A DNA stretch of 64,000 nt from Bryoerythrophyllum caledonicum (taxonomy: Eukaryota > Streptophyta > Bryopsida > Pottiales > Pottiaceae): assembly GCA_963971425.1 (NCBI GenBank), contig OZ020524.1:682001-746000 (forward strand), in the 5' to 3' direction. The stretch's first letter is position 1. The number at the start of each line of letters is the position of its first letter. The notes below the pieces were generated by a model, which was not told where the DNA came from, ran no database searches, and saw only the letters and a program-made list of their open reading frames with translations. Made by a program: the position numbers and the translations under genes. Positions 8,601-40,201 of the stretch are shown one piece after another.

Positions 8601-8857
8601 AATATGATAAAACTTGCAAAATGTAAAATAAATTTGTATCTATGTATTGTTGTGGTGTCGGCTACATAAAATTGTGTTAAAGGTTTTTCATAAATTCCAC
8701 TTTTTAATTGTTTTATACTTTTGTGCACTCAAGATAATTGATAGTATTCTTAAAAGTATTCTAAAACAATACTTACAAGATTATTTTTCCTTTAATCATT
8801 AATCTCATAGTATGAAATGATAATAAAAAAATCATAAAAATCATGTATATAGAAAAT
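5690..8857. other. AT-rich stretch without a recognisable gene
   Basis: About 3.2 kb of very AT-rich sequence with stops in all frames. Short open frames at 6293-6505 and 6561-6875 lack conserved motifs. It probably represents strongly decayed repeats. I see no RNA gene, coding exon or regulatory structure that I can support. Confidence 0.6.
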
Positions 8858-10938
8858 AGAATCAAAGGATACACTACAATTACATTCAAATTGTAAAATT
8901 TGAAATTGAGCATATTAGGATAAAAATGATTTTCAACCTTATGTCAATTGTAATGGTTGGTAATAGAGAGGACATGTGTTCCTTAGAAATAACAACTTGT
9001 TCTAAATATATAGCAAGTATAAAAGGCTTCTTCGAAAAATAAATAACAATGGTTATGGAGTACACTACTTATTATGCTAATTAAGTTAGGTCATAAGTGT
9101 TACAAATGTCCAAAACAAACTACAAATATATTTTAAAGCTAAGAATGAAAAAAACTTCAATAAAGGTTTGAAAAAGGTTGGTTTATTATATTGTGAAAAA
9201 ACTTCCTCCTCTTTAAAAAAAACTAGCTAAGGAATTCACTTCATTGCTTGAAAATTTATATTGACTAGTTCATTGATTAACAATTCTAAAGTTACAACTC
9301 CAATCCTTGTTCTTAAAGCTATGACTCGTTTTCTTTTATATTTTTTTGAATGATTGTTGGACGCATTCAAATTGTAATGTGATGCATTGAAAAAGTTAAA
9401 AAATTGGTAAAAAAAAACTCAATTCTAGTTTGGGCTAATAAATGTTTGAAAAATTTGTCTTCTGGATTTTGAATTTCGAACAATATAGGCTTTGTCATGA
9501 AATTAGGTCAAAAATGGTTAAAGATTCTTTATCAAATAATTAAAAACTTCTCACAAAATTTGATAAAGAGTAATATTTTCATGAAAATTGTTAAAAATCA
9601 CCTAATTACATAGTTAATACTTTCACACTGTGGTGAGTAGAAAACTACTCTTTATTGATACAAAGTATTACCATGCAAATTCTAAAAATATTTCTTTTAA
9701 ATATTGAAGAATTGTTTCAAGCATAAAGTTTTAGAATTAAAAAACTCTTTTGTTTTATTATATTACCTGTATACTTATATGATAAATGACCCTTTCTTAA
9801 GTTGTAAAAGTGCATAGATTAGTAGATTATGTAATATGAAGTATAAAAGTTTTTTGTTAAAGATTATGTAATATGACACTAGTAAGGTTTATTTAGAAAT
9901 TTTAAAGTACACATGCTATTTCTTCTATAGATTAATTAGAAGGTAACAACAAAAAAAATCATATTTAAGTTGTCTAACAAATTGCAAACAAAAAGACTGC
10001 TCAAATCATAAAAGCTTCTTAGTTTGATGTCCAATTAAATTTATATCTCCAAGAAGCTACTACATTCTTTAGAATTTTTGAATGTTCCAAAAATGACATG
10101 TATAATTAATTGTGCAAATTGAAAATTTTGAAGTTATCTAAGATTTAATCATTTATGGACACAAATCTTCATAAATAATATTGGCGGTCCATTAAGACTC
10201 AAGAGCTATTACTATACCTTGTTAGAAACGTTTTAAAGACTATAGCTCACTTTATTTATTTATTTTTGAATTGGCCATATAATATAATTTTTTGCCAAAT
10301 ATAAAAAATGTGGATGTTGGAAAAACCTTGTGTGTTTGATTTGAACAAATTTCTAAGATAGTTATGGCCATCAAAATCTTGTTGATGAGCAAAAGCATTG
10401 GCTAACCAACAATAAAACCAAGGTTCTTCGTTAGTTGCAAAAACCCACTATTGAGCAAAAAGTATCTGAATTTGATACCAAATTGAATATATTGTGAGAT
10501 TGTGCCAGTTAGTAGCTTTGTGGAATTCAAGTTTTTTCTCCTAATTATAAAGATTGCTATTATAATTGCAATCTAGTCAAGTCTTGGAAGCTCCAAAGAT
10601 TTGCCACCCTTCAACTATCATTATGTTGTCTTGTACAAGTTTTTTTTTTAAATGTCAAGAAAACAACATTGTGTCTTCGATCATATATTGTTTAAAAGGA
10701 AGTCAAAAAACTTCACACCATTTTGAGCAAAGGACCAAAATGAGCGTTAGTTTCCTACATAAAAATTAAATATTTGTTTAATTTTATTTTGTCAACTACA
10801 AATTTTTAATTTAACCTTTGAGTTTATTAATTAAGTATATATCCTACACGGCATTTAGTTGACTAAAATGTGTAACATAGTTTTTGTTCTTCAGTTTGCT
10901 GGGCTATGCATTAAAAACACAAAATCCTTCTTCTAGAT
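8858..10938. repeat. 2.1-kb direct repeat, copy A (possible 5' LTR)
   Basis: This segment is repeated in the same orientation at 21244-23974. Matching landmarks include TCAACCTTATGTCAA, TTATATTGTGAAAAAACTTCC, GTACAAGTTT and TTAGTTGACTAAAATGTGTA. The copies are similar throughout, with small indels. Copy A lacks the 666-bp Helitron of copy B and shows the empty site TTA|TATGATAAATG at 9777/9778. The pair encloses Ty1/copia remnants in plus orientation, which fits LTRs, but I see no clear TG..CA ends, primer-binding site or polypurine tract. A duplicated repeat of another type remains possible. Confidence 0.8.
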
Positions 10939-20992: not shown

Positions 20993-22241
20993 GCCCTACG
21001 CACTACCACTACGGTACAGTCACACAGAAGACTTCATCATTTTTTTTGGAAACATTAAGCTTATAGTTGCACATAGTAGGATCCAAATAAAATTTTAAAA
21101 TTCCAAATACACATTATGTAAGAATGTTTCAAGCATTTTGTACATTATGAACTTTTGAAAATTTACCATTAGTATTTTTATTTAGTTGTTTGTCATTTGC
21201 AAGCCCAACATGCAACCTCGAGTCTTGAATTTAACATGAAGACAGAATCAAAGAATACACTAAGATTGTATCGAAATTGTAAATTTTGAAATTGAGCATG
21301 GGATAAATATTATTCTCAACCTTATGTCAACTGTAATGGTTGGTAAAAGAGAGGACATGTGTTACTTGGAAGTAACAACTTGTTTTAAATATATAGCAAG
21401 TGCAAAAGGCTTCCTTTAAAGATAAGTAACATTGGTTACGGAGTACACTACTTATTATGTTAATTAAGTTAGGTCAAAAGTGTTACAAATGTCCAAATCA
21501 CATTACGTATTTATTTTAAATTTAAGAAGGAAAAAAAATTCAATAAAGGTTTGAAAAAGGTTGGTTTATTATATTGTGAAAAAACTTCCTCGTTTTAAAA
21601 AGAAATTAGCTTAGGAATTGACTTCATCGGTGGAAAATTTATATTGACTAGTTCATTGATTCACAATTCTAAAGTTACAACTCCAATCCTTGTTCTCAAA
21701 ACTATGACTCATTTTTTGTTATATTTTTTGAATGATTGTTGAACGCATTCAAATTGTAATGTGATGCATTGAAAGAGTAAAATATTGGTACAAAACACTT
21801 GAATTCTGGTTTTGGATAATAAATATTTGAAAAATTAGTCTTTTGGATTTTTAATTTGGTACAATATAGGCTTTGTCATGAAATTAGGTCAAAAATGATT
21901 AAAGGTTCTTAATCTGATATTTAAAACTTCTCACGAGATTTGATAAAGAGTAATATTTTCATGAATTTGTTAAAAAAACACCTAATTATATAGTTAATAC
22001 TTTTACACTATGGTGAGTATAAAACTACTCTTTATTCATACAAACTATTAACATACAAATTCTAAAAATATGTTATTTTAAATATTAAAAAACTTCTTTA
22101 AGCATAAAGTTTTAGAATCAAAAAACTCTTTCATTTTATTATATACTTATATACTTATAAACTTACTAGTATCGGTACCCGTCATTCATACTGGAGAAGG
22201 TTTTTTATTAGTGCTCCTCAGAATAAAATTTGTTTGGCGTA

Positions 22242-22550
22242 TTATATTTTAGATTGCAATTTGCATCCCTCAAAACATCGTGCGTTGATCCGCGAAACGT
22301 TGTCATTCCGTGCGGCAAGGATGGCACGACCGTTGAAGTACTCGTGCGCATTTGCTTCAACGTCAACAATTCCTCCATAGACGGCATTGATTAAGCCGTT
22401 CAAGGTGTGATTGCCGACAATCATCGCCTGTGGACACCCAATCATGTCATCCTTCACCTTCTCTAGTCTGTCATCTTCCAGCGCCAAGAGCCACTCTGGA
22501 AATGTACGGTTGCCCAACTCCACGCGATGTTCACCAACAATAGCGCGCAT
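22242..22550 (-). pseudogene. Helitron PIF1-like helicase fragment
   Basis: The 102-codon frame begins NMRAIVGEH and contains RTFPEWLLALEDD, GLINAVYGGI, EYFNGRAILAARNDNVSRIN and ends at LQSKI. These blocks match the C-terminal half of the PIF1-type helicase of Helitron Rep-Hel proteins, where RAIL..N..V..IN is characteristic. Walker A/B motifs and the end of the domain are missing, so it is non-functional cargo. The frame opens directly at the telomere-like array. Confidence 0.85.
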
Positions 22551-22570
22551 GTTCCGACGAAGTCTTTGGT

Positions 22571-22790
22571 TTAGGGTTTAGGGTTTAGAATTTAGGGTAT
22601 AGGATATAGGATATAGGATATATGGTATAGCATATAGGGTATAGGGTATAGGGTATAGGGTATAGGGTATAGGGTATAGGGTATAGGGTATAGGGTATAG
22701 GGTATAGGGTATAGGGTATAGGGTATAGGGTATAGGGTATAGGATATAGGATATATGGTATAGGGTATAGGATTTAGGGTTAGGGTTAGG
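22571..22790. repeat. Telomere-like heptamer array (TATAGGG)n flanked by TTTAGGG
   Basis: The array begins with TTTAGGG units, passes through degenerate TATAGGA and TATATGG units, continues as a long run of perfect TATAGGG, then reverts through TATAGGA to TTTAGGG and TTAGGG. The symmetric gradient suggests expansion of a variant inside a short plant telomere repeat. It lies wholly within the Helitron, so it is cargo, not a chromosome end. Confidence 0.9.
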
Positions 22791-23974
22791 GAGCGGCAGA
22801 CTCATTGAGTGACGCCTTTTATATAGGTAGATATGATAAATGACCCTTTTGTAAGTTGTAAAAGTACATAGATGAGTAGATTATGTAGTATGAAGTATAA
22901 AAGTCTTTTGTTAAAGATTATGTAATATGACACTAATAAGGTTTATTTATAAATTTTAAAGTGCACAAGCTATTACTTCTATAGATTAATTAAAAGGTAA
23001 TAACAAAAAAAATCATATTCAAGTTGTCTGGCAAATAGCAAACATAAAGATTGCTCAAACCATAAAAGCTTCTTAGTTTGATGTCCAATTGAGTTTATAT
23101 CTCCGAGAAGCTACTACATTCTTTAGAAGTTGTGAATGTTCCAAAAATGACATGTATAATTGATTGTGCAAACTTTTAAGTTGTCTTAGATTTAATCATT
23201 AATGAACAAAAATTTTGACAAATAATATTGGCGGTCCATTAAGAGCTATTACTATATCTTCTTAGAAACCTCTTAATGACTATAGCTCACTTAAATTTTT
23301 TTTGGAATTGGCCATATGATGTATTTTTTGCCAAATATAAAAAATGAGGATGTTGGGAATACCTTTTGAGTTTGATTTGAACAAAATTCTAAGATAGTTA
23401 TGGCCATCAAGAACTTGTTGATGAGCAAAAGCATTGGCTAACCAACAATAAAACCAAGGTTCTTCATTGGTTGCAAAAACCCACTATTGAGCAAAAAGAA
23501 TGTGAATTTGATACCAAATTGAATATATTGTGAGATTGTGCCAGTTAGTAGCTTTGTGGAATTCAATTTTTTTCTCCTAATTATAAAGATTGCTATTATA
23601 ATTGCAATCTAGTCAAGTATTGGAAGCTCCAAAGATTTGCCACCCTTCAACTATCAATATGTTGTCTTGTACAAGTTTCTTTCAAAATTGTCAAGAAAAC
23701 AACATTGTGTCTTAGACCATATATTGTTTGAAAAGAAGTCAAAAAACTTCACACCATTTTGAGCAAAGGACCAAAATGAGCGTTGGTTTCCTACATAGAA
23801 ATTAAATATTTGTTTAATTTGATTTTGTCAACTACAAAGTTTGAATTGAACCTTTGAATTTATTAATCAAGTATATATTCTATAAGGCATTTAGTTGACT
23901 AAAATGTGTAACATAGTTTTTGTTCTTCAGTTTGTTGAGCTATGCATTAAAAACACAAAATCCTTCTTCAAGAT

Positions 23975-25365: not shown

Positions 25366-25496
25366 CCTAACTGCTGGCCGTTAGGGTTTGTTGGCTTAGA
25401 CGGTTAGAACGGACGTGTGTCTGTTAGGGAGGGTTTTTATAAGGACGATGCGTGCAGGGACAACATCGAGAGAGGGTGAGGAATTAGGCAGAACAT

Positions 25497-26009
25497 ATGA
25501 AGACTGTCGCCATGGCCAAGAAGAAGAAGACGAACCAGGATGGAAGAGGGAATCGAAACGAAGCGCCGGCCGCCGCGCTTCCGCCTTTGATGAAGGTTCT
25601 ACCGGAAATCCTTGCGGACCCGGACGAATACAACCTACTAAAGGGGAGCTTGAAGGCCATGGGCTGTGACGAATTCCTAGACGTCGCCTGGAGAATCCGA
25701 GAAGAGGTGTATGTCCGGGAGTTGATAGGAACGCTGAACTCGAAGTACGAGGGGATGCTGCGGGCCCATTCGGAACTATGGGGAGTTCCGGAATGGATAC
25801 ACGCGTATGACTTCGAGGCCAGGCACACCAAGGTGGTAGAGCGGAGGGACGAGTTCCTGGCGGAGGAATTTGAAGGAAAAGCCGATCCGAAGGAGGGGTA
25901 CAACATCCAGGACTTGAAGCATCAGGATGCCCGGTTGGTGCAAGGGTTTCTAAACCCTATCTTCCATCCGAAAAAGCCGAAGCGGTTGGTATCGAAGAAG
26001 CGAAGCTAG
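25497..26009 (+). CDS. Gag-position ORF of the retroelement (170 aa), unrecognised domain
   Basis: The ORF encodes 170 residues with a basic N-terminus (MAKKKKTNQDG) and a helical acidic middle, and it ends KPKRLVSKKRS then TAG. It has no zinc knuckle and I do not recognise a gag or capsid fold, so its role is inferred from position only. Its GC content is high, like that of the methyltransferase downstream. The TAG stop falls at the left end of the inserted 1.6-kb element. Removing that insertion places this ORF upstream of, and in the same frame as, the methyltransferase. An alternative start is the Met at 25512. Confidence 0.5.
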   Translation: MKTVAMAKKKKTNQDGRGNRNEAPAAALPPLMKVLPEILADPDEYNLLKGSLKAMGCDEFLDVAWRIREEVYVRELIGTLNSKYEGMLRAHSELWGVPEWIHAYDFEARHTKVVERRDEFLAEEFEGKADPKEGYNIQDLKHQDARLVQGFLNPIFHPKKPKRLVSKKRS

Positions 26010-27626
26010 TATGCGAGCGTAGAGCGGGAGCATGGAGCGTGGAGCATGGAAACAAATGCGTGGACATAAAAATTCTGGAAAATGTAAGGAATTTTCTAAA
26101 ATTTTATTGAGAATTTTGAAGGGAAAATTTGAAACATACAATCATGGGCCTAGGTCTATAGGCAAAGACCCATTACCGTGGACCAAACACCTAGATGCTA
26201 GGAACATGGATTTAGACCCTGGCCCTACAACCGTGGACATTAAACTCTATGAAATAAGGTTCGGGATTAGTGAATGTTATAATAAGGGCCGTGCAAGACT
26301 GCAGAGGAGATGCTGATGGGGCTAAAAATTCAAAAATTCTATACTTCATTGACTATAAAATATTAGAGGACTAGGCGTTGCACAAACTACTCGTTCTCTA
26401 AAGACGTCTCGATACGGAGACATCTTTGGATGTTGAATTTTTATAAAACGCAAAGATTTGAATTCTGCACAACAGCAACATGTTAGTCTACCTTTTCTCC
26501 TCTAAGTCCTATTCTCAATATGAATATTTTATTCGATGTAATGTTGCAATGCTCTCATCTTGTACATTGTCTTGTCATAGGGTATAGCATATACGCTTGT
26601 CGTGCTTCACACTGCCACATACTGGCATTCAAAGAGGACAAGGCTATTTCCGATGCCCTCATTGCTTCAATCATGTGCTCACCGATGGTTCCCACAGCAG
26701 ATTTTCCACTTCTTTCAATTGCTTCTATTGATTTGGATGACAGTGAAGTACCAGTCCAACGAATCGTGAAGACATCTGTATTCAGTGAGTAAGTTTGCCC
26801 TTGATCTTCCATTCCTTGAACTATTTGGTTAATGTAAAGGTACTCTTATATGTTTTTCGGGTGTTTCTCTAAGCTTGTTGATCAAGTGAGGAATTTCAAT
26901 GTTCATTTCTTTGCGAATCTTGGATTTTTCCCAAGCCCCCCTAGACCATTTCAACTACCTGTATACGCTGAGGCCCTTTCTAGAGATTTTGTATCTATAA
27001 AGTCTAGGCCAACTTCTAGGGTCCAAACACTAGATCCCCGCATTTTGGAGTTCATTGATGACCACGCCATGGACTCTAATGTAGAGACCTCGGACTCCGA
27101 TTGTAGTTCATCTTCAACCCACTCGCATTGACGTTTTTTCATGTGGTAGTTCAGCTTTTACTATGCACAATGTTAGTCCATTCCTTTGAGATTTCTGATT
27201 TTTTTTGGTTATAGGTTGTTGTTTTTTTATGTGCTTTGTAGTCACTAAATTTGTACTTTGTCTGGCCTATATGAAGCCCTTAAATGGTATTTCTGTGTTT
27301 TTTTTTTTGTTCATCTTGCAATTTTTTTGTTTGAATTTCTGTGATATAACTTACGATTGTTATTATTAATATGTATGCATGTGTAGCTTATGTGACTTAC
27401 TTCAGTTCACAATTTCACCATTTTTAACTTTCACGGCCATAAGTCCAACTTCGAAAGTCAAGTTTCTTATCTTCAATTTTTGTTTTATAATAATCCATGG
27501 TTATATGTAACCGTTCTTCTATTTAGAATTCACATTTTTTTCCAATTTTTTTTTTCTCGCTCATTTTCCACGCTCTACGCTCCATGCTACATGCTCTACG
27601 TTCCCGCTCCACGCTTGCATACTAGC
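26005..27626. mobile_element. 1.6-kb DNA element with repetitive inverted termini inside the retroelement
   Basis: The left end starts GCTAGTATGCGAGCGTAGAG and the right end, reverse complemented, starts GCTAGTATGCAAGCGTGGAG. The arms (about 26005-26052 and 27565-27626) are built of heptamer-like GAGCRTG units. CTAG, or the TA within it, is duplicated at both borders, 1616 bp apart. The interior carries two short plus-strand frames (26520-26792 and 26850-27131) that could be exons of one decayed protein, with an acidic Ser/Asp-rich C-terminus (SDSDCSSSSTHSH). I do not recognise a transposase in it. Confidence 0.7.
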
Positions 27627-27628
27627 AT

Positions 27629-28664
27629 TCCCCACTACCGGATGAGGGTATTATCCTTGTAGAGCTCTTTGCCGGTATCGATACAGGGCTCGCGGCTGTG
27701 TTAGAGGCCGGGCTGAAGGTACGTCGGTATATCCACGTGGATAGTGGCTTTGCAGCCAACCGTGCTGCTCACCATCACATTCAACGTCTTCTAGTGTTGT
27801 ATCCGGAGCTGTTACCACCTTCTGCAATTTGAGGGTATTTTGACAAGTTGCCACCTCATGTGCCGTTGATTAGTGAGGAAGATCTTCGCCGGTTAGATCA
27901 CGTGGACTTGATAATTGCCGGATGGCCTTGCCAAGGCCATTCATGGGCGAGTAGCGGACGTGGCTTGGATGATCCAAGATCGGGGCTCCTTGCGGATTTG
28001 CTCTGGCTCATCCAGTGGTGGATTACCCACCAATCGACGCCACCATGGTACATTTTTGAGAATGTACCCCAATTTGAAGATGCACGGATGAAGGTGCGTG
28101 GGGATGGGGCATACATCCATCACCTTCTTGGCCCCCCCCACGTTTGTAGATGCCGTGGCATTGGGCTCTTATGCCCATCGGCCACATTGGATTTGGACCA
28201 ACATGGCATCATTGGCAACGCTCACCTCAGCACTTGCTCAAGTGCAACGGCCCACGCGCCGTGCGGTGGATGATATCTTGGAAGATCATCGTGTTTCCCC
28301 GGAAATTACCAAGGATGATGAACCACCATTGGCGGTGGTGAACCGTGTTGGTTTTACTCGGGGGGCATTGAACACGTTGATGTGCTATCCAGGGTCATTC
28401 GCCTTTAAGACACGTGGTCCGGGCATCGTTAGGGATTTTTCTTCCCAAACGTACAAGGAGCCTTCTGCCGATGAGAGGGAGCGGGCGATGGGCTTTTTGA
28501 CAGGCACCACCGCCGCACCAAATCTTTTTGAGGACCAACGTTGTTATTTGTTGGGTCAAGTCAATGACCTCAACACCTTCGTTTGGGTTTGTGGCCTCTA
28601 TTTCGTCGTTCAACGTTGTGTGAGTGACTATCCCCGTGTGCTGGAGGCAGACTCTGATAGTTAG
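27629..28664 (+). pseudogene. Cytosine-5 DNA methyltransferase carried by a retroelement
   Basis: Conserved motifs occur in order. Motif I reads VELFAGIDTGLAAVLEAGLK (about 27660), followed by the acidic IHVD. Motif IV reads IIAGWPCQGHSWAS with the catalytic Cys (about 27920). Motif VI reads YIFENVP (about 28055). Motif VIII-like is GSYAHRPHWIWTN, IX-like is ERERAMGFLTGT, and X is RCYLLGQVNDLNTFVWV (about 28550). The domain is compact, with a short target-recognition region and no BAH or chromo domain, so it is unlike plant MET1, CMT or DRM. An in-frame TGA (27830-27832, probably from CGA) and a frameshift in a run of eight C (28132-28139) inactivate this copy. Known cases of methyltransferases captured by retrotransposons are reported in dinoflagellates and the alga Klebsormidium. 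Confidence 0.88.
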
Positions 28665-28839
28665 GGGGGCATTGGTGCCACATCTCATAGAGATCGAGGA
28701 AGTAAAGTTGTTTTTTCGTTTAAAGAAGCATACAATTGAGGAGCTTCGTACTCAGCGTATCTTTGCACCCTTGGCCTAGGACTTTCGGCGAGAGGATGCT
28801 CATGATATCTTTGCCCCATTTTGTCATCACAACACGGAA

Positions 28840-29490
28840 TTTTTTGTGGATCTCGTGAGTGAGTCGTCTAGGGACATCAATGCTCTCGCTGCTACCAAGT
28901 AGCAGTCATTGGCCGTGCCGATATGCGGTGTGTCTTCTACGGTGGAGAAAGAGACCACAAAATTTGCTCACTGGCCTTATGGATTTGGGGCCACATCTTA
29001 ACGGTGTTGAGGCACGGAGGGTACGAGCATTTATACGTTCGTATCGTAGTTGTTTTGCCTTTAGTGTCCATGATTTGGAGGGATATAGAGGCAAACCGAT
29101 ACACATCTAGTTGGAAGATGACCACTTGAGCATTCAATGACCGTACAAGCTCAGTCTCTCTGAGAAAGTTGGGGTTCAGACTCGTTGTCAGGAGTTGTTG
29201 GCCGCCAACTTGATTGACCTCTTTAACGACGAGTACGATTGTGCCACAGTTATGCCATTAAAGAAGGATATCTTTGGCAATCGGACGGAGAAACGGATGT
29301 GTGGGGATTACAGGCCAGTCAATCACAAGACCAAATTAGACCGATATCCCATGCCCACGCCGGAGGAGTTGTTTGATGTGGTGGGCCACGCTATAGTATT
29401 TAGTACTTTAGATCTGTGGTGTGGTTATTACCTGTTACCATTAATGGACCGCGTGAAGACTACATTTTGGGTAGTTGACCAAAGGATTGG
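28840..29490 (+). pseudogene. Ty3/gypsy pol fragment: protease-RT linker and reverse transcriptase N-terminus
   Basis: One frame contains CFAFSVHDLEGYRGKPIHI, the linker typical just before gypsy reverse transcriptase, and then the RT blocks EKRMCGDYRPVNHKT, LDRYPMPTPEELFD and VFSTLDLWCGYYLLPL. The frame carries stops at 29108-29110 (TAG) and 29138-29140 (TGA), both explicable by C-to-T changes. Homology ends near 29485 at FWVVDQ, before the YxDD catalytic motif. RNase H, integrase and the rest are missing. It follows the methyltransferase in the same orientation with about 180 bp of related coding debris between them, so both belong to one element. Confidence 0.85.
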
Positions 29491-29571: not shown

Positions 29572-29637
29572 ACAACATTAACAAGACTATGGAGAGGTAA
29601 TAGTCTTGTTACCTCTCCATAGTCTTGTTAATGTTGT
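29572..29637. repeat. Perfect 29-bp hairpin
   Basis: The arms at 29572-29600 and 29609-29637 are exact reverse complements (containing CAAGACTATGGAGAGGTAA) around an 8-base loop. Part of the arm, TTACCTCTCCATA, occurs a third time at 29555-29567. It lies just beyond the RT breakpoint. Confidence 0.95.
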
Positions 29638-29684
29638 ATGGTCCTAGATGGATAGAGGGTCTCTTTGTCCGCAACTGAGGGCAC

Positions 29685-29784
29685 TTGAGGGTGTATCACT
29701 TATACTTGTTTTAATGTATGTTTTTTGTTTATTTGATGTTGGTTAGGACTCTTGATCTGTTGTAGTTATCGATCTTTCTTTACA
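29685..29784. repeat. 100-bp direct repeat, copy 1
   Basis: It matches 30151-30250 at roughly nine of ten positions, sharing CTTGTTTTAATGTATG, TTATTTGATGTTGGTTAGGA and TCTTTCTTTACA. The spacing is 466 bp. The intervening sequence has LTR-like character and no coding frame. Confidence 0.85.
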
Positions 29785-30150
29785 GGATAGCTGTCACGGG
29801 ATGTGGCATCGAGGACCTCTCCGTATTGTAGTTTTAGTGTAAATTAGTTTGTTACTAATCTACGGGTCTTTAGGGACAAACGGAAGTGCACTGCATTCAT
29901 CCATGGATGATTTTCATCCACTCAAGGTTGTATGCATGTGCGTATAGCACCGCACACGTCCTTGATTTGACGTCTTTGTCAAGTCAAGCTTTGTGAGTGA
30001 GTTAGAGAATGTTTGGTGATTACCTTTGTTTATAAGTGATTGTTTATCATTAGTAAAGGCTCTGCATTCTCTTATACTATTTGCACTCATTAATTCTCCC
30101 TTCGTGGAGTGTGAGACGCTTGACTACGTGAGTGGTTTCATATTTGTTCC

Positions 30151-30250
30151 TTGAGGGTATATTACATATACTTGTTTTAATGTATGCTTTTTGCTTATTT
30201 GATGTTGGTTAGGATTCTCGATCTGTTGTGGTTTTCAATCTTTCTTTACA
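30151..30250. repeat. 100-bp direct repeat, copy 2
   Basis: Partner of 29685-29784. The pair may be a duplicated part of an LTR of the gypsy element or of an unrelated repeat. Confidence 0.85.
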
Positions 30251-30317
30251 CAATATTGAAATTAACATTTAAATGCTCTCAATCCCAAAAAAGTAAACAA
30301 CGATGAAGATGCAAAAC

Positions 30318-31128
30318 CTATTTAGAACTCCCGGAAGAGTCCTTGGCCTTCAACACTTCAGCATATAAAGCCGTCATTTGTAGTTGTCCATTCATCAACA
30401 TCTCCCTACTTTCTCTTTCATTATCTATTGTTTTCTCCGTGAGTTGCAATTTCATCTTTTCCACCTCCAGAACACCCTTAGAGAAATTATCAATGGCAGA
30501 GACAGTGGATTCCTGTTCCATAGCCAGTTTCTTCTTCTTTCTCCCTGCATTTTGATTTACTTGTCCTTCACATCCTGGTTGGTTAACCGCCTCACTGCAT
30601 GGGGACTGTGAATAAGTAGTTTTTGGAGTAGAGGGATAAGAAGAAGGGATAGGCAAAGTGCTCTCATGATCATCATCCAAATAAAAGCCTCGGAATGTTG
30701 TAATCGAACTCCCTGATCAACACCATGAGGCACACCATTGATTTTTGCGGTACCACCAAAAATGTTATAAATTTTTTTATGCCATGGTGTTTAAGTCGAC
30801 GGTGAAGCTCCAATCTCTTCTTGCTTCACCTTCTCCTCTTGGTACATTGATTTTAACTTGTTCCACTTGCCACGCGTCTGTTGCCAAGTTCTTTGAGGCT
30901 CGTCTAGAAACTGTGTGTTCAAGTGGTTCAAAAATGACTCCCAATTTGTTTTTTTGAAGGGCTTGCGATTATACTCCCAATATTTTTCCTCACACAAGTC
31001 CAGAAGAAACCTCACAGTCCCCTCTATCCATTCCTCTTCAAATTTGAAATACCACAAGTCCCTTGAGAACTATCACCCCCTTCATCAAGCATTAAAGTTA
31101 TCAAACCCCCCTTTGGAACTTCCATAAT
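30318..31128 (-). pseudogene. Myb/SANT-like transposon ORF (Harbinger ORF1 or L10-interacting-MYB type)
   Basis: On the minus strand, after a leader with MEVPKGGLITLMLDEGG, a trihelix-like domain reads EEWIEGTVRFLLDLCEEKYW ... NWESFLNHLNTQF ... TWQQTRGKWNKLKSMYQEEK. This is the Myb_DNA-bind_3 layout, with spaced Trp and helix 3. The next frame encodes FGGTAKINGVPHGVDQGVR, and the last frame (30680-30318) ends with a Lys-rich stretch and a coiled-coil tail. At least two frameshifts separate these parts. Such proteins accompany PIF/Harbinger transposases; none is seen here. Confidence 0.7.
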
Positions 31129-38019: not shown

Positions 38020-39558
38020 CTATGGCAAATTTGGTACTTGTACTCCATCAAAGTATGGACGGTACTTTCCAATGATCTCTTGCAAGTGAGGAAACAATTG
38101 GTTAGTACTCCAAGTGCCGTCTAGCCCTAATGCTAATCCGCACCTAATCATAGATTTCCTAGCATAGGACATATGATCACAATCTAATTCACGGTTGACA
38201 TCTTCAACGGAGTCCGCCGCAAGTTGAAGAAAAAACCGTTTACCAGGATTGGAAAGTTTACCGGACCATTGACCGTCACCCCGTGCATTATTTTGCCAAA
38301 CGCCTTCTTGGATTAATTCGGTTTTTTTGAGCTCCCATTGTTTGGTCCAAGCGTCTTTGATCTTGGAAATTATGAATGTGTCCGCCGGTTGACATAAGTG
38401 GGTTGCGCATGGGGGTAAGTATTTCAAAATAGTTCTCTTTTGTGCTAGAACGGCCGCTAATGTAGGAGTTAAATTATGCGCCGTACAATTATCCACCCAA
38501 ATGAATTTTGTACGGTTGTGTGGGTCCGGTTGATATGCCCTAGACTCCTCAAAGTATTGTGGGAATATAGTTTGATCCATCCACCCCTTCGGTCCCGTTC
38601 GGTAACTAACTCCGGGGATGTTGTCATCCAAACCTCGAATTGGATAATTCCGATTTTCATTACTGAAAATAAGCATTGGAGGTTCTATGATGGCTCTACG
38701 TCCCCGTGAAATACGTACGACCATAGTTATGGCTTCTCCTCCGGCTACGACATCCGCGTATTTAACCGAAACATCTCCTCGAAACCCTAGAGCACGTTTG
38801 TTGTCCATATTAATGGTAAAGTGGGTTTCATCCATGTTTTCGATGAGATTTTCATCAAAAACACCAGATTGGAATCCCCGTTGTAAAGTCCCCAAATGAT
38901 ATGCCGTGTTTTTTTCTATTTGCATTTCTTTTTCCGGACTACAACTCAAGCGGCCCCGTTGAGAAAGTAAAACAATGCTATTAACATCCATGAATTGTTG
39001 AATCCATGATGATGTTAATTTATCGGTTAAAAGTCGTCCATCCTTTGGGTCCCTAGATTGGTCCGTATACGGTGAGTCTAGGCCTAAAAGAAGGGATTGA
39101 CCTAGTTCAAGAAGAAGGGCGGAAGAAAACTTAACTCCCGCTCGTTTGTAAGCCTCAAAAGATTCCAAAAGACGTGGGTAGAGCCACTGAACCCACTCCG
39201 ATCGCCGTGGGCCCCGTCCGCTAGCCGCCTTACTAAGAATCCTCTTTCGTTTGCCCATATTACTTCTGCTGGACGATAATGCATTGGCTTGGTTGGTGTC
39301 CGTGGGAGGTAATAGTGTAACCGCAAAGCCCACCACCGTGTAGCACGAACAAGGTTTGTGCTGTGTTGTGCTCGAAAATGTTGTGGGAAAACCTGAACAG
39401 TGCGACTGTATCCTCGGCTTCCTTGAAGCTCCTGGTCTTCTATCATCCAAGCGACGACAGTCCTGCGTGCGTGAATGGTGGATACTTGCTGAAGTGCCCG
39501 CCGCCGGTGTGTGCTCGTCCCGGCGTCCATCCCTGCGAACAGAAAATGGGAATATCAT
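38020..39558 (-). CDS. Intact pogo/Tigger-like DDE transposase
   Basis: An uninterrupted frame of 512 codons. The DDE_1 core is clear: ENMDETHFTINMDN (Asp at about residue 243), FIWVDNCTAHN (Asp about 356) and THLCQPADTFIISKIKDAW (Asp about 393). It also has conserved blocks YRTGPKGWMD and GQWSGKLSNPGKRFF and a C-terminal YARKSMIRCGLALGLDG. The order DD(36)D is that of pogo-type elements in the Tc1/mariner superfamily. The first 100 residues are low-complexity, so the true start may be the Met at 39258 (MGKRKRILSK, about 412 aa). An N-terminal HTH is not obvious. With no stop or frameshift the gene may be young or selected. It is flanked by related palindromic repeat clusters at 34.5 and 40.2 kb. 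Confidence 0.85.
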   Translation of the reverse strand: MIFPFSVRRDGRRDEHTPAAGTSASIHHSRTQDCRRLDDRRPGASRKPRIQSHCSGFPTTFSSTTQHKPCSCYTVVGFAVTLLPPTDTNQANALSSSRSNMGKRKRILSKAASGRGPRRSEWVQWLYPRLLESFEAYKRAGVKFSSALLLELGQSLLLGLDSPYTDQSRDPKDGRLLTDKLTSSWIQQFMDVNSIVLLSQRGRLSCSPEKEMQIEKNTAYHLGTLQRGFQSGVFDENLIENMDETHFTINMDNKRALGFRGDVSVKYADVVAGGEAITMVVRISRGRRAIIEPPMLIFSNENRNYPIRGLDDNIPGVSYRTGPKGWMDQTIFPQYFEESRAYQPDPHNRTKFIWVDNCTAHNLTPTLAAVLAQKRTILKYLPPCATHLCQPADTFIISKIKDAWTKQWELKKTELIQEGVWQNNARGDGQWSGKLSNPGKRFFLQLAADSVEDVNRELDCDHMSYARKSMIRCGLALGLDGTWSTNQLFPHLQEIIGKYRPYFDGVQVPNLP

Positions 39559-40201
39559 TCCTGATTTCTACTAGACATTTGGATGATGGATGATATTCAT
39601 GTGGGACGGAGGCATGGGGTCTGGTGGCATGATGGCGTGCGGTGAAGCCATATGGTGAGTCACTGTCAATCACTGCAGATTGAGAATAACTGCGTGCTTT
39701 TATAAGGAAGTGGCCAATGAGTGCTGGCGCAGTTGGTTGCTGTGGATGCGCTGTGGACGTCAGTTGGTGCGCAGATGATGCTGACCTGACGCAGGCTTGG
39801 CCGAATCCCTCCGAGAAGATACTGAAACTGGAATTAACATATCATTGTGTGCGACAGCCCAAAAGCAAGGAGTATCTGAAAAAATGACCTGCGAAAATAT
39901 AACTGAACACCAAAAAACCAAGTGCCGCATAAACTCAACACCAAGTGCGACATAAACTCACCAACAACTGTGGAATGCAAAAGTGGGGGATCAAGGATGG
40001 AAGACTGGAGTATAGATAGGAATAAGGAGGGCAAAGTCAACAGGGTGAGTAAAGACATGGCGGCCAGTAGATGGTTGATTGGAGGGTTACATTCATAACA
40101 TTGGTGGCTTAAATTATTTATTAATGGGTTAGGCGGTTGATTGGGGGTTACATAATTGACATTGGTTTCATTGGAGGTTAGGTGGTTTATTGGAGGATAC
40201 A

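Follow-up and report, generated by a model that had tools for sequence, protein, structure and literature searches.

Closest described systems

Retrotransposons that carry their own cytosine-5 DNA methyltransferase (DNMT) were described in 2018 by de Mendoza et al. (PMC5890265), so that DNMT-bearing gypsy elements are already published for the charophyte Klebsormidium. KnitGypsy-Dnmt3 of Klebsormidium nitens is a gypsy-type element with an intronless DNMT3-class enzyme in which the key residues are conserved; the DNMT is placed in the open reading frame (ORF) of the Pol polyprotein, and its repeats have a DIRS-like arrangement (PMC5890265). SymbioDIRS-Dnmt3 and SymbioLINE-Dnmt of dinoflagellates are also retroelements with a cytosine methyltransferase, but belong to the DIRS and LINE classes of reverse transcriptase (RT). 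Retrotransposon DNMTs were reported in the same paper to methylate CG de novo, and self-methylation was suggested. In this work the remnant of a DNMT-bearing Ty3/gypsy-type element is described from a 64,000-nucleotide stretch of Bryoerythrophyllum caledonicum (contig OZ020524.1, hereafter the window), together with its protein relatives. As a rule, cytosine methylation is used against transposons; this lineage carries the writer itself.

The comparison with KnitGypsy-Dnmt3 showed that in the relatives of the window's element the DNMT lies behind gag and protease and before a fixed stop, and that a PHD finger is present on the second ORF. KnitGypsy-Dnmt3 was set apart on the basis of its description, its sequence not being among the named matches; the words gag and PHD are absent from the main text of PMC5890265. 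With respect to the catalytic domain of animal DNMT3A, DNMT3B and DNMT3C, the enzyme of the relatives differs in lacking ADD and PWWP domains and in being fused to gag and protease. As for the later literature, PMC12344493 cites the 2018 cases and calls those with long terminal repeats (LTRs) Copia, PMC12477816 deals with a DNA transposon whose methyltransferase is of the N4-cytosine or N6-adenine kind, and the available part of PMC8616336 contains nothing on a DNMT-bearing gypsy family. Neither a gag-protease-DNMT gypsy family nor liverwort elements of this type turned up among the titles and abstract openings listed from the open-licence literature. The features that therefore look new are the Gag-side DNMT, a stop that is fixed and perhaps leaky, the PHD finger, and the representatives in liverworts. 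If the reading given below is true, capture of a DNMT by gypsy elements would not be confined to one charophyte.

The remnant in the window

The remnant spans positions 27638-29479 approximately (about 1.84 kb, + strand) and runs co-linearly from the DNMT through a TAG stop to the beginning of the RT. Motifs I, IV, VI, VIII, IX and X of a C5 methyltransferase occur in their usual order at 27638-28664, distributed over three pieces. The first piece (27638-27829) carries motif I, which reads GIDTG in the window copy versus GIGTG or GISTG in most relatives, and is ended by an in-frame stop at 27830-27832. The second (27833-28165, tblastn frame 2) carries motifs IV (PCQ) and VI (ENV), with a change of frame near 28125-28165, and the third (28125-28664, tblastn frame 3) contains motifs VIII, IX and X and is 71-74% identical to the relatives P0041 and P0042. 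The C-terminal tail of the methyltransferase ORF follows at 28663-28899 after a further change of frame and is interrupted once by a stop; it shows 48-58% identity to the ends of P0001, P0002 and P0041-P0046 (final 79-83 residues), the value for the final 79 residues of P0041 being 48%. The similarity thus passes through frames 2, 3 and 1 in turn, and the window methyltransferase has the majority residue of eight close relatives at 264 of 319 positions. An earlier sequence-only reading had noted methyltransferase motifs at 27.6-28.7 kb, and these were confirmed at 27.64-28.66 kb by motif reading and by a Pfam DNA_methylase match (E 8.2e-10) on the single stop-free stretch 27833-28273.

The TAG and the adjoining CAGTCA occupy 28900-28908. 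Beyond them lies the start of a Ty3/gypsy RT ORF, broken and truncated (28915-29479), with similarity to the relative P0080. Residues 1-40 of P0080 match weakly at 28915-29043 (E 0.005), beginning 12 bases past the stop, and residues 22-190 match 28979-29479 with 76% identity over 169 columns, in a frame different from that flanking the stop. The gypsy RT that the same reading had placed downstream in the same orientation is thereby verified, and the window RT piece by itself gave no Pfam match. As the similarity covers methyltransferase and tail as far as the stop and sets in again 12 bases on, DNMT and RT are regarded as one unit.

Residues 1-912 of P0041 (gag and protease) and residues 191-1043 of P0080 gave no match with E <1 anywhere in the 64 kb, and no gag, protease, integrase or LTR was found with the window copy. 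No pair of direct repeats flanking the fragment was found within 18-40 kb, which is what a copy that has lost both ends should show. With several stops and at least three frame changes, the window copy is a dead, fossil fragment truncated at both ends.

The sequence-only reading had extended the element over 25497-29490 and had assigned a short ORF (25488-26009, + strand) to the gag position. This ORF was rejected as gag: nothing in Pfam matches it up to E 1, and comparison with 79 family proteins, gag-bearing ones included, gave no significant similarity (best E 1.3 in blastp and 1.2 in phmmer). A segment of 1.6 kb bounded by terminal inverted repeats (26005-27626, no strand assigned; ends 26005-26050 and 27581-27626, 39 of 46 bases) comes between this ORF and the methyltransferase fragment; it lies outside the retroelement, no transposase was found in it, and no clear target-site duplication was seen by eye. 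Since the ORF is unrelated and this segment intervenes, the remnant is limited to about 27638-29479.

Shortly after the RT remnant there are a 66-base near-palindrome (29572-29637) and a 101-base direct repeat (29684-30255). They are perhaps the trace of a later insertion which cut off the RT remnant.

Relatives and their domain organization

Relatives were collected by three protein searches. The window methyltransferase as query gave 40 proteins, the best with 78% identity over 99-100% of the query. The second search used P0002, lengthened by X to admit longer proteins, and yielded at least 39 proteins from the best 7995 candidates by shared words, which were scored. With the window RT piece, 14 proteins were retrieved. 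Most relatives come from metagenome contigs, and the named hosts are the liverworts Marchantia polymorpha (P0061-P0064, P0066) and Calypogeia fissa (P0060), whose members are known here from DNMT-side proteins alone. P0061 is hardly a contaminant, because it sits on a 27-Mb contig. The close relative P0004 is filed under a bacterial metagenome-assembled genome (Candidatus Obscuribacterales) and is probably a eukaryotic sequence in a bacterial bin.

A CCHC knuckle, a protease motif LD[ST]GAQP and the methyltransferase motif GWPCQ occur together in a single ORF of 1159-1451 amino acids in 16 of the 26 proteins P0041-P0066, with a Pfam protease above cut-off in P0056. On the RT side, all six proteins longer than 1000 amino acids besides P0065 (P0080, P0082, P0085, P0086, P0088 and P0090) contain integrase and PHD, and the order RT-RNase H-integrase within one ORF was seen in P0080, P0086 and P0065. 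Two of the 14 RT proteins, P0081 and P0082, derive from contigs whose lengths (36659 and 8955) equal those for the DNMT proteins P0052 and P0053, and these are taken to be the same contigs. As predicted from these proteins, intact relatives have a first ORF coding for gag(CCHC)-protease-DNMT and a second for RT-RNase H-integrase-PHD. The gag-protease-DNMT ORFs and the DNMT/RT pairs assigned to the same contigs uphold the earlier proposal of a methyltransferase-bearing gypsy family with the window fragment as a member.

Methyltransferase and RT also occur together in single proteins, contrary to the refuting condition named by the sequence-only reading (the two never joined elsewhere): P0065 and P0069 hold both domains, and P0070 matches both. 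In P0065 the DNMT is ahead of the RT in one ORF, the protein ending within the integrase. P0069 has the alternative layout RT-RNase H-DNMT-integrase-PHD; the RT precedes the DNMT in P0070, and the DNMT precedes integrase and PHD in P0072. The DNMT is therefore found at two places, in the gap between RNase H and integrase (P0069, partly P0072) and before the RT (P0065), which suggests two captures, or a relocation of the DNMT domain, among these elements.

Enzyme class and trees

Among solved C5 methyltransferases the closest class is DNMT3, and motifs I to X are in the normal order. The other solved chains scored lower (DRM 43 bits, HaeIII 34, HhaI 33, DNMT2 24), and no DNMT1 or CMT chain was present among the 58 solved chains listed up to E 10. 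The catalytic Cys and Glu are kept in 47 of 47 proteins. By these sequence features the enzyme is a predicted cytosine-5 methyltransferase of the DNMT3 class.

The DNMT tree comprised 47 of 92 proteins and the window (at least 240 reference positions, span <420), 79 of the 92 having come from the two DNMT searches, and was built without host or bacterial reference sequences. The window methyltransferase falls within a clade of 12 rows with support 100/100, and the base of the tree is weak (62/83). Of the methyltransferase tree that had been proposed, the grouping with retroelement-family enzymes was thus obtained, among family proteins and not against host or bacterial enzymes. The RT tree contained 16 of 20 matched proteins, P0082, P0068, P0076 and P0078 having been dropped by length filters; P0069, P0070 and P0074 are set apart in it at 100/100.

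The stop codon that separates DNMT from RT

The residue aligned with the window TAG is the last one of the DNMT protein in all 11 close relatives of the window's 12-row clade. The terminal residues are SATK in eight of them and AATK, SATQ and SATE in one each. This shared end indicates that the stop is older than the decay of the window copy. Distant relatives end nearby with different tails, and P0048, P0052, P0059 and P0062 stop earlier.

The stop context TAG-CAGTCA fits UAG-CARYYA, the type I leaky stop of tobamoviruses, benyviruses and pomoviruses (PMC5382211); this applies to the window DNA, the relatives being known as proteins in which the codon is not visible. Searches of viral and genome contigs yielded no DNA of relatives. 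Such a context is found at 2 of 909 TAG triplets on the + strand of the window and at 3 of 871 on the - strand. The likeness to the viral stop consists in the UAG followed by CARYYA and in coding that continues in frame (PMC5382211). The difference is that here the stop would split Gag-protease-DNMT from RT, and that it is known from the sequence of one dead copy. The window has the same frame before and after the stop, the part after it being weak (E 0.005). A frameshift between DNMT and RT was also considered, and is not favoured because the tail and the first RT residues, by that weak match, lie in one frame.

These features lead us to infer that the RT is probably made by readthrough of the stop. 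The plant retroelement SIRE1 makes similar use of a leaky stop. A possible, though rather unlikely, alternative is that the same element and enzyme exist but the RT-integrase is produced by re-initiation, or from another messenger RNA, with a start about five codons past the stop. The predicted RT proteins P0080 and P0082 do start with Met near that point, and an RNA structure after the stop is not supported (z -0.59). However, where a predicted protein starts is merely decided by the gene finder, P0065 carries DNMT and RT in one ORF, and the unchanged frame across the stop in the window and the rarity of its context also argue for readthrough.

Proposed mechanism and its alternatives

The best explanation of the whole, to which a probability of roughly 0.55 is given, is a two-ORF gypsy element with a Gag-side DNMT, an RT expressed through a leaky stop, and self-methylation of its complementary DNA (cDNA). 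In active copies most ribosomes would halt at the UAG, so that Gag-protease-DNMT would be made in excess and would bring the enzyme into the virus-like particle, while a minority would read through UAG-CARYYA and yield RT-integrase. The DNMT would then act on the freshly made cDNA, methylating its cytosines (probably in CG) no later than the moment of integration. Contact with chromatin may be aided by the PHD finger that the integrase ORF encodes. New copies would thus enter the genome already methylated, and for this reason could be quiet and tolerated. It is tempting to speculate, although the odds are somewhat against it, that a gypsy lineage with DNMT3 at Gag stoichiometry, a leaky UAG-CARYYA and a PHD reader on the integrase side has reached land plants (liverworts, perhaps also the window's host). 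If true, such an element would be self-sufficient both in writing methylation onto the cDNA it makes and in reading the target chromatin. A translationally controlled, Gag-side writer would also make self-methylation for tolerance testable, and the Marchantia proteins P0061-P0064 and P0066 offer a model-plant route for such tests.

Self-methylation by the window's family is suggested by analogy with the published elements. CpG depletion, as a trace of it, was not seen, the fragment having a value of 0.82, as against 0.73 for the window as a whole and a median of 0.60 for segments of 1.8 kb. In columns on which seven or more of eight close relatives agree, 42 substitutions were counted, of which 12 (an uncontrolled count) are G-D, A-V, R-H or R-W and could be explained by C-to-T changes. 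The lack of CpG depletion would suit an enzyme that serves another end, such as a change in host chromatin or silencing, RNA methylation, or the supply of a Gag-fused DNA-binding part. This is held to be doubtful, since the motifs and fold are those of a DNMT3-class DNA methyltransferase with Cys and Glu conserved throughout, and de novo methylation of CG has been reported for retrotransposon DNMTs (PMC5890265).

The fragment might also be an ordinary member of the KnitGypsy-Dnmt3 type, with its DNMT inside the Pol polyprotein; the TAG at 28900 would then be one of the decay mutations. The window copy is indeed decayed, with further stops, and the KnitGypsy-Dnmt3 enzyme is described in the Pol ORF (PMC5890265). 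The end shared by all 11 close relatives at that residue, and the presence of gag, protease and DNMT in the ORF of the relatives, make this improbable. That a chromosomal plant methyltransferase pseudogene lies by chance next to an unrelated RT fragment is very improbable and in our view refuted by the single proteins P0065 and P0069, each of which combines the two domains: the tree is without host DNMT3, but the same enzyme is joined to protease or RT in relatives, and homology is unbroken from DNMT to stop and resumes 12 bases later.

Other features of the window

On the - strand, an unbroken frame of 515 amino acids (38020-39567) contains a DDE_1 endonuclease domain (E 1.1e-12) and represents a pogo-like transposase that is perhaps still intact. 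A short ORF on the same strand (30794-31069) has a Myb/SANT-like domain (PF13837) and is perhaps part of a DNA transposon. Two long direct copies are located at 8852-10938 and 21238-23974, with two blocks at 88% and 91% identity; the second copy is enlarged by additional sequence, in which a 14-base tandem array lies at roughly 22540-22826. The window, which is judged to come from a plant nuclear genome, also holds pieces of aconitase, of a metallophosphatase and of an ArfGAP, the last just below the Pfam cut-off.
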